Shown here piece after piece: positions 20,878 through 45,586 of a stretch of 64,000 nt of DNA; positions within the stretch are counted from its first letter, which is position 1; each line of letters starts with the position of its first letter. The stretch comes from Corynebacterium sp. HMSC27B11 (GTDB lineage: Bacteria; Actinomycetota; Actinomycetes; Mycobacteriales; Mycobacteriaceae), in the NCBI RefSeq assembly GCF_001815985.1, contig NZ_KV823578.1, positions 1 to 64,000 of the forward strand, written 5' to 3'. Under the pieces are notes generated by a model, which was not told where the DNA came from, ran no database searches, and was given only the letters and a program-made list of their open reading frames with translations. The translations under genes and the position numbers were made by a program.

Positions 20878-20903
20878 CCCTCGCCACATGGCGAGGGTTT
20901 TTT
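20878..20903 (+). terminator. Rho-independent terminator before dcw cluster
   Basis: A perfect 8-bp stem CCCTCGCC/GGCGAGGG with a 4-nt loop is followed by six T residues. It isolates the DUF3040 gene from mraZ. Confidence 0.92.
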
Positions 20904-41949: not shown

Positions 41950-42114
41950 ATGCTCGTGGCCTCATTGGGCCTCGCGGTCCTCGGATTTGCAGCGCTCCTG
42001 GTGGCGCTCTATTTAGGCTCAGTCACCTGGGCCTGGATCTGCGTGATCATCGCAGCCATCGGAGTCCTGCTCTCCATCGCGGAGGCCATCCAGCACCGTA
42101 AGAGCAAAAAATAA
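41950..42114 (+). CDS. 54-residue two-helix membrane protein
   Basis: A short open frame, below the size usually listed. ATG at 41950 begins 5 bp after the wag31 stop and ends with TAA at 42114. The product has two hydrophobic helices (VASLGLAVLGFAALLVALYL and WAWICVIIAAIGVLLSIAEA) and a basic tail ending HRKSKK, giving a membrane hairpin with the tail in the cytoplasm. Spacing after wag31 implies co-transcription. No function is recognised. Hydrophobic codon pattern and position argue that it is real. Confidence 0.65.
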   Translation: MLVASLGLAVLGFAALLVALYLGSVTWAWICVIIAAIGVLLSIAEAIQHRKSKK

Positions 42115-42133: not shown

Positions 42134-42160
42134 GGGTTGGCAGCCACACCGAGCCAACCC
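42134..42160 (+). terminator. Hairpin at start of ileS leader
   Basis: An 8-bp perfect repeat GGGTTGGC/GCCAACCC with an 11-nt loop lies 20 nt past the small membrane gene. It could terminate the wag31 transcript weakly (no T-tract) or be the first helix of the ileS leader. Confidence 0.4.
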
Positions 42161-42162
42161 AA

Positions 42163-42391
42163 CGCTAGGACCCGGCCATCACCGGCGAGCGCCTCGGAAG
42201 AACAGCCCCCACCAGGGAAGCCCAGTAGAACCGAGCGGAGTCGCGTCCCGTAGAACAACGCAAGATAAGAGGAAGCCTTTCCAACGGGCGGGTGGCGCCC
42301 ACGGCAGGCTTCAAGCAGGGTGGTACCGCGAATCCTCGTCCCTGTGCTTGAAAGAAATTTCACTTTAAGCACCAGAGACGAGGATTTTCTT
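42163..42391 (+). promoter_or_regulatory. T-box riboswitch of ileS (translational, short Stem I)
   Basis: The T-box sequence AGGGTGGTACCGCG (42317-42330) precedes ileS. A compact hairpin (CGCT..CCGG / CCGG..AGCG, 42163-42191) carries an isoleucine AUC codon in its terminal loop (42178-42180), as in the ultrashort-Stem-I class of actinobacterial ileS leaders. AATCCTCGTC (42331-42340) pairs perfectly with GACGAGGATT (42377-42386), which contains the ribosome site, and an inner GTGCTT/AAGCAC extends the stem. Uncharged tRNA-Ile should free the site. The TTTTCTT after the stem leaves some room for termination control. Confidence 0.9.
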
Positions 42392-45300
42392 ATGGCTACA
42401 CCAGCTGGCGGCGTCTACCCCCGCGTCGACATGAGCGGCGGAGGCAGCAACTTCCCGGCCATGGAAGAAGAGGTACTGAAGTACTGGAAGAAGGACAATA
42501 CCTTCCAGGCCAGCCTCGATAACCGCAAGGACAACGAGGAGTACGTCTTCAACGACGGCCCGCCGTTCGCTAACGGCCTGCCACACTACGGCCACCTGCT
42601 CACCGGTTACGTCAAGGACATCGTCCCGCGCTACCGCACCATGGCCGGCTACCACGTCCCGCGCGTCTTCGGCTGGGACTGCCACGGCCTGCCCGCCGAG
42701 CTGGAGGCGGAGAAGCAACTGGGCATCAAGGACAAGGGCGAGATCGAGTCCATGGGGCTGGACCGCTTCAACGAGTACTGCGCCAAGTCCGTCATGCACT
42801 ACGCCGATGAGTGGGAGAACTACGTCACCCGTCAGGCCCGCTGGGTGGACTTCGAAAACGGCTACAAGACCATGGACCAGGACTACATGGAGTCCGTCAT
42901 GTGGGCCTTCAAGGAGCTCTACGACAAGGGCCTGATCTACCAGGGCTTCCGCGTGTTGCCGTACTCCTGGGCCGAGCACACCCCGCTGTCCAACCAGGAG
43001 ACCCGCCTCGACGACTCCTACCGCGACCGCCAGGACCCGACCGTCACCGTGACCATGCCGTTTACCGGCGCACGTGAGGGCTACCCGGCCACCAAGACCT
43101 GGGAAGCGCACCCCGAGCTGCACGACGCCGCGGCCATCGCCTGGACGACGACCCCGTGGACGCTGCCGTCCAACCTCGCCCTGGCCGTCGGCCCGGAGAT
43201 CGAGTACTCCCTGGTGAAGGTCGGCGAGGACGGTGTGGAGGGCTTCGTCGGCGCGAAGCTGCTGCTGGCTAGTGCACTGCTGGGTGCCTACGCCAAGGAG
43301 CTGGGCAAGGAGCCAGAGGTGCTGGCCACCTTCACCGGTGCTGAGCTCGAGGGCCTGGAGTACACCCCGGTCTTCGATCACTTCGCTGATCAGGAAAACG
43401 CCTTCATGGTGCTCGTCGCGGATTACGTCTCCACCGAGGACGGCACCGGTGTCGTCCACCAGGCTCCGGCCTTCGGTGAGGACGATATGGAGGTCTGTAA
43501 GGGCTACGGCATCGACCTGGTCATCCCGGTGGACGCCGACGGCAAGTTCACCTCCCTGGTGCCCGAGTACCAGGGCAAGCTTGTCTTCGACGCCAACCGC
43601 GACATCATCCGCGACCTGAAGGCCAAGCAGCGCGTCGTGCGCGACCAGACGATCGTCCACTCCTACCCGCACTCTTGGCGCTCCGGCGAGCCGCTGATCT
43701 ACATGGCCCTGCCCGGCTGGTTCGTGAACGTGCTCGAGATCCGCGACCGCATGGTGGAGCTCAACCAGGAGATCGAGTGGATCCCGGAGCACATTCGCGA
43801 CGGCCAGTTCGGCAAGTGGCTGGAGGGTGCCCGCGACTGGAACATCTCCCGCACCCGCTACTGGGGTTCCCCGGTCCCAGCCTGGGTCTCTGATGACCCG
43901 CAGTACCCGCGCGTGGACGTCTACGGCTCCCTCGCTGAGCTGGAGGCCGACTTCGGCGTCCGCCCGAAGTCCCTGCACCGCCCGGACATCGACGAGCTGG
44001 TCCGCCCGAACCCGGATGACCCGACCGGTAAGTCCATGATGCGCCGCGTCCCGGACGTCCTCGACTGCTGGTTCGAGTCCGGCTCCATGCCTTTCGCCCA
44101 GTACCACTACCCGTTTGAGAACGTGGCGGCCTTCGAGGAGGAGCAGCCGGCGGACTTCATCGTCGAGTACTCCGGCCAGTCCCGCGGCTGGTTCTACGTC
44201 CAGCACGTGCTCTCCACCGCGCTATTCGACCGACCGGCCTTCAAGAAGGTCGTCGCCCACGGCATCGTCCTGGGCTCCGACGGGCTGAAAATGTCCAAGT
44301 CCAAGGGCAACTACCCGGACGTCAACGAGGTCTTCGACCGCGACGGCTCCGACGCGATGCGCTGGTTCCTGATGTCCAGCCCGATCCTGCGTGGCGGCAA
44401 CCTGATCGTCACCGAGCAGGGCATCCGCGAGGGCGTGCGCCAGGCGCTGCTGCCGATTTGGAATGCGTACAGCTTCCTGCAGCTCTACGCCTCCGAGGAG
44501 GCGCGCTGGTCCGTGGATTCCGATAACGTGCTGGACCGCTACATCCTCGCCAAGACCCACGACCTGGTGGCCAATGTGGACAAGGCCCTGGCCGATACCC
44601 GCATCGCGGACGCCTGCGACGAGGTGCGCCAGTACGCCGACATCCTCACCAACTGGTACGTGCGCCGCTCCCGTGACCGCTTCTGGGCCGGCCAGGAGGC
44701 CCACCCGGAAGCCTTCGACACCCTGTACACGGTGCTCGAGGTGGCCACCCGCGTGACCGCGCCGCTGCTGCCGTACATCTCCGAGGTCATCTGGCGCGGG
44801 CTGACCGGCGAGCGCTCCGTCCACCTGGCGGACTACCCGAAGGCCGAGGACTTCCCGGCCGACGCGGAGCTCGTCGACGCGATGGACGCCACCCGTGCGG
44901 TCTGCTCCTCGGCCAGCTCGGTGCGCAAGTCCAATAAGCTGCGCAACCGTCTGCCGCTGCCGAAGCTCACGGTCGCGCTGCCGGAGTCCGCACGGCTCGC
45001 GGAATTCGCCGCCACCATCCGCGATGAGGTCAACGTCAAGGACGTGGAGTTGACGGATGACGTCGACTCCGCGGGCAGCTTCGAGGTCGTCGTCAACGCG
45101 AAGGTCGCTGGTCCGACGCTCGGCCGCGACGTCCAGCGTGCCATCAAGAACGTCAAGGCCGGTAACTACGTCCGCGAAGGCGAGAACGTGATCGTCGACG
45201 GAGACATCGTCCTGACCCCGGAGCTGTATACCGAGCGCCTGGTTGCGGAGAACCCGGACTCCACCGCGCGCGTCGCGGGCCCGGGTGGGCTCGACGGCCT

Positions 45301-45586
45301 GGTGGTCCTCGACACGACCGTCACCCCGGAGCTGGAGGCCGAAGGCTGGGCGGCGGACGTCATCCGCGGCCTGCAGGACGCCCGCAAGAACGAGGGCTTC
45401 GAGGTCTCCGACCGCATCCGCCTGCGCCTGGCGGTGCCGGCGGAGAAGAAGGACTGGGCAGACCAGCACATCGGACACATCGCTGAAGAGGTCCTCGCGG
45501 TGGAGCACGAGGTACTCACCGGTGAGAAGCTGGGCCACGAGATCGTGGACGGCGTGACCGCCGAGGTGGCAAAGGTGGCTCGCTAA
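42392..45586 (+). CDS. ileS: Isoleucyl-tRNA synthetase
   Basis: A 1064-residue class I aminoacyl-tRNA synthetase that charges tRNA-Ile. The HIGH-type motif reads [14 protein letters not shown] near residue 70, and [11 protein letters not shown] near residue 633 completes the catalytic site. A CP1 editing insertion lies between. Length and motif pattern fit the larger, eukaryote-like class common in actinobacteria, which is often less sensitive to mupirocin. The frame opens at 42320 inside the T-box. ATG 42392, with GAGGA 7 nt upstream, is the start. dinB follows after 6 bp. Confidence 0.95.

Follow-up and report, generated by a model that had tools for sequence, protein, structure and literature searches.

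The gene ileS (42392 to 45586, + strand) lies in a window of 64,000 nucleotides, the whole stretch of DNA analysed here, and its ATG is directly preceded by a leader (42164 to 42391) that raises the question of whether this gene is under the control of a T-box riboswitch and, if so, at which level of expression. A sequence-only reading had placed an ileS T-box at 42163 to 42391, which is approximately the whole leader. According to our analysis, the element is very probably a T-box riboswitch of the ultrashort-Stem-I type, which responds to tRNA-Ile(GAU) and controls the translation of ileS. The leader is flanked at its 5′ side by a 54-aa membrane-protein-like open reading frame (ORF) (41950 to 42114), which follows wag31/divIVA (NF050102), and at its 3′ side by ileS, which is followed by a DNA polymerase IV gene. 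The features of the leader and its gene are as follows, with the basis of each assignment in parentheses.

42164 to 42190, + strand: Stem I (27 nt), a CCGG/CCGG helix on a kink-turn-like GGA/CGA base (sequence, Rfam alignment, layout across the genus)
42178 to 42180, + strand: specifier AUC, within the apical loop CCAUCA (complementary to the anticodon GAU of tRNA-Ile of the same genome)
42193 to 42235, + strand: Stem II, with S-turn strands GGAAGAAC (42196 to 42203) and AGTAGAACC (42224 to 42232) (strands conserved across the genus)
42235 to 42261, + strand: candidate Stem IIA/B pseudoknot (complementarity by inspection, 4 + 4 bp)
42272 to 42312, + strand: Stem III, with AAGAG before it and AA after it (MFE fold; position relative to the published motif)
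42315 to 42345, + strand: antisequestrator with the T-box sequence AGGGTGGTACCGCG (42317 to 42330) and the UGGU bulge (42321 to 42324) (Rfam, folds, sequence)
42331 to 42386, + strand: sequestrator hairpin, formed by AAUCCUCGUC...GACGAGGAUU and enclosing an inner helix (computed folds)
42380 to 42383, + strand: Shine-Dalgarno (SD) sequence GAGG, 8 nt before the ATG at 42392
42385 to 42391, + strand: T-rich run TTTTCTT, which overlaps the spacer between SD and ATG and is a candidate terminator U-tract (terminator score)
42392 to 45586, + strand: ileS, isoleucyl-tRNA synthetase, 1064 aa (TIGR00392, 828 bits, over its cut-off)

When the leader was scanned with Rfam at the gathering threshold, no T-box match was returned, since its score lies under the T-box gathering score of 93. 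The covariance model scan proposed in the sequence-only reading did recover the element in a permissive search, in which RF00230 (T-box) aligned end to end with 42158 to 42346, scoring 34.8 bits with an E of 2.3e-6, short of that cut-off, as the sole T-box match in the genome. A match to mir-961 on the opposite strand (E 0.048) corresponds to the reverse reading of the sequestrator hairpin and was regarded as due to chance. Over its full length, the leader has a plain MFE only slightly lower than that of shuffled sequences (z −2.17), as is expected of a folding model without pseudoknots and tRNA.

The stretch CCGG-CCAUCA-CCGG (42172 to 42185) within Stem I displays the specifier as had been claimed, that is, as AUC in the terminal loop of a hairpin shorter than 30 nt. 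The genome encodes a tRNA-Ile(GAU) with discriminator A, whose gene ends in ACCA and which matches the element twice, through its anticodon GAU at the specifier AUC and through its 3′ ACCA at the UGGU bulge. For the candidate pseudoknot, GCGG/CCGU (42235 to 42238 with 42248 to 42251) would form IIA and GCGU/ACGC (42243 to 42246 with 42258 to 42261) would form IIB, while the surroundings of Stem III can be set beside the published motif RRRNG-StemIII-AA (PMC7778990). A longer Stem I with another specifier was sought upstream and none was found; the only structure there is an inverted repeat, GGTTGGC...GCCAACC (42135 to 42159, 7 bp), which is not T-box-like. This repeat, just 5′ of Stem I, keeps its pairing via a G-U change in the leader L003 and may lie near the transcription start.

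The same architecture recurs throughout Corynebacterium, where the exact 13-base T-box core is present in 239 of 242 genomes. The AUC specifier occurs in all 123 distinct leaders that were fetched, as determined with a search pattern that demanded AU at the first two positions and that every leader matched; the automatic parse gave AUC in 122 of them, and the exception is a parsing artefact whose loop, GCUAUCA, also holds AUC. Stem I is near-invariant across the genus, with the same layout, and in a few leaders its pairing is kept by two-sided changes (CCGA...TCGG in L044 and L055, CCTAG...CTAGG in L159). The assignment to an ileS T-box is borne out by the Rfam match, the downstream ileS, the matching tRNA and this comparison.

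Downstream of the aptamer, the SD sequence lies inside the sequestrator hairpin, which in the computed folds excludes the antisequestrator: AATCCTCGTC (42331 to 42340) pairs with GACGAGGATT, and this pairing is impossible once the antisequestrator has formed. The sequence-only reading, according to which the sequestering stem hides the ribosome site and ends in a T-rich run, agrees with these folds. The hairpin has a predicted stability of about −27 to −28.4 kcal/mol, the latter value being matched by none of 2000 mononucleotide shuffles, and its sequence is also found in two named MAG records, Candidatus Corynebacterium intestinavium and Corynebacterium urealyticum. The anatomy of the leader, its gene, its cognate tRNA, its mutually exclusive computed folds and its comparative conservation are shown by these analyses.

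The energy gap between the ON and OFF states was computed by folding the segment that runs from Stem III to the start codon under the constraint that the antisequestrator be formed. In nearest-neighbour energies that leave out tRNA and pseudoknots and are a guide only, the constraint carries a penalty of 15.1 kcal/mol for the leader in the window and of 9.8 kcal/mol for that of the sibling G107, whereas the median across 116 leaders is 0. No other leader of the 116 has a gap as large as these two, in a ranking that is approximate for several unusual or long platforms (e.g., L006, L008, L009, L036, and L179) where the script that picked the start codon was wrong or doubtful. Since the hairpin is about 15 kcal/mol more stable than the antisequestrator state in the absence of tRNA, switching at equilibrium would be hard unless folding is co-transcriptional.

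How the tRNA binds, how the leader switches and in which direction it regulates ileS are inferred from the published class, as follows. Accumulating uncharged tRNA-Ile would pair through its anticodon with AUC in Stem I, a contact that Stem II and the candidate IIA/B pseudoknot would buttress, and its ACCA would pair with the T-box UGGU, stabilising the antisequestrator (42315 to 42345). The latter would keep AAUCCUCGUC off GACGAGGAUU and leave the SD sequence free, so that IleS could be made; with charged tRNA, the hairpin at 42331 to 42386 would form instead and hide the SD sequence.

Most other corynebacterial leaders appear to use another sequestrator design. Between IIA/B and Stem III they carry an element, typically CUCCUUCACCACA, whose complementarity to the SD region, GUGAGUGAAGGAG, extends for about 8 to 16 bp; we observed it in L139, L148, L159 and L078 and in some 60 further ileS leaders of the genus. 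Among 61 distinct leaders, the pairing within genomes averages −16.3 kcal/mol, compared with −13.5 kcal/mol (sd 0.27) for permuted partners, and none of 10000 permutations reached the observed value, a significance that is overstated because relatedness was uncontrolled. Compensating differences between species, exemplified in L159 by CTCCTTTAAAAAC with GTTTTTAAAGGAG, suggest that this is a long-range anti-SD element, which may overlap the strand that would be assigned there to IIB. No such element is present in the window clade: in L001, upstream pairing reaches −9.6 kcal/mol versus −28.3 kcal/mol for the local hairpin.

Whether the platform also affects transcription can be viewed in more than one way. 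The first possibility, which we hold to be somewhat unlikely, is that the switch is translational and that Rho-dependent termination would ensue when the SD sequence is hidden, the T-rich spacer merely keeping the start unstructured. A translational platform with Rho-dependent termination is claimed for an M. tuberculosis Mbox (PMC12810186), and unrelated leaders devoid of strong hairpins also have T-rich SD spacers; the argument is nevertheless one of analogy throughout.

The second possibility, raised in the sequence-only reading as dual control and in our view unlikely, is that the hairpin hiding the SD sequence would also be an intrinsic terminator ending at TTTTCTT, so that charged tRNA would stop transcription before the start codon and, as a second layer, block translation of the transcripts escaping termination. 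The hairpin and its tail were evaluated by the d'Aubenton-Carafa formula, with values above 0 taken as a pass, and they score +1.7 in the window and +8.1 in the sibling G107, but the former value runs from −31.5 to +1.7 depending on the stem end chosen. Only the four-genome window clade exceeds 0 among 121 distinct leaders, the next best scoring −8.1, and the 64-kb window, both strands taken together, has five sites with a positive score, of which this is one. The large ON/OFF gap, furthermore, fits a kinetic decision. Against this, a stricter terminator scan gave no call at the hairpin and TTTTCTT, and the four clade genomes, 96-98% identical to the query, are too alike for their conservation to be informative. 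At least six T in the eight bases before the start occur in 6 of 112 leaders, so T-rich spacers are not rare, and what is rare is their pairing with a strong SD hairpin. What stands of the dual-control claim is a terminator score that just passes, and only in this clade, whereas the margin is thin and the stricter scan silent; on these model scores, intrinsic termination at the predicted hairpin and TTTTCTT is possible.

The top hairpin-plus-T-tail sites of the window by the same score are those at 20897 (+ strand, +43) and 1919 (+ strand, +22). In a distant species (L158, genome G167, T-box at 1501), we also observed a similar two-layer hairpin with the SD sequence GCGAGG followed by TTTTATTC; considered as independent support for a terminator, this hairpin was rejected, as it scores only −14.9.

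The origin of the translational T-box platform in this clade can be approached through IleS itself. In the IleS tree, the four-genome window clade falls inside a 16-row cluster (support 100/99), whose other fetched members have IleS proteins starting V/I-G-G/N-V-Y-P and mostly carry the anti-SD element. The N-terminus of the window IleS resembles instead that of other lineages, starting TPAGGAYPR, which are without this element. When the window IleS is compared with members of its own cluster, identity amounts to about 40-60% in the first bin (a few untranslated lead-in residues are counted in it) and in most cases to 70-97% thereafter, while L023, which represents a TPAGG lineage, is 70% identical to it in the first bin. 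A junction is placed before about codon 54 because VFNDGPP is common to the window and its sisters, whereas the TPAGG lineages have VFYDGPP. The best matches to the IIA/B linker outside the clade, L035, L175 and L023 (37, 31 and 29, against a chance level of 27, a small margin for the last two), are all of the TPAGG type. L023 and L175 have look-alikes of the 54-aa ORF in the corresponding position, and a search in L139, L148, L025 and L029 yielded none. On the tree of the IleS body, the TPAGG trait needs at least five changes, and a topology that unites all TPAGG rows in a single clade is rejected (p-AU 8e-7), which alone is no proof of transfer. Taken as sequence patterns, these observations suggest that the region from 41950 to about 42520, comprising the 54-aa ORF, the leader and the first ~25 to 45 ileS codons, is a recombined cassette that resembles TPAGG-type corynebacteria, the rest of ileS grouping with VGG-type species, and recombination would be the simplest reading. 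That the clade both gained its T-box cassette by recombination and turned the hairpin into a tRNA-controlled terminator, with transcription and translation both controlled, is quite unlikely.

T-boxes with SD-sequestering hairpins were described in several Actinobacteria ileS leaders in 2005, in a genome set including three corynebacteria (PMC1262725), and the structure and mechanism of ultrashort ileS T-boxes are treated in PMC7583486, PMC10651847 and PMC10482949. The leader studied here is a real, ordinary member of this already published ultrashort translational class, the class to which the sequence-only reading had assigned it. With the ultrashort (class III) ileS T-boxes of Nocardia farcinica and Mycobacterium tuberculosis (PMC10482949, PMC7583486), it shares the short Stem I whose apical loop displays the specifier, the S-turn of Stem II, the IIA/B region, the T-box, SD sequestration and ileS as the target. 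Unlike them, it has an unusually stable sequestrator followed by a U-rich run; what is unusual in this member is that its expression platform is very stable and terminator-like, a combination restricted to one small clade. Stem I, Stem II, the T-box and the AUC specifier are likewise common to the other Corynebacterium ileS T-boxes, which hold CUCCUUCAC, complementary to the SD sequence, in contrast to the window clade with its local hairpin, and most of which differ from the window in the IIA/B sequence. Transcriptional T-boxes such as those of B. subtilis tyrS and glyQS resemble this leader in the T-box bulge, a competing OFF hairpin and a U-rich tail, but the leader lacks their long Stem I with its elbow-binding double T-loop motif, its own Stem I being 27 nt, and its OFF hairpin contains the SD sequence. 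Ultrashort ileS T-boxes are thought to be translational, the slower tRNA binding expected from the absence of the elbow-binding motif being tolerable there (PMC7583486); a transcription-terminating ultrashort member, if true, would be a direct test of that argument. Within the genus, one aptamer is combined with at least two designs of sequestrator, and these, together with the apparent exchange of switches between lineages, make the evolution of the expression platform testable.
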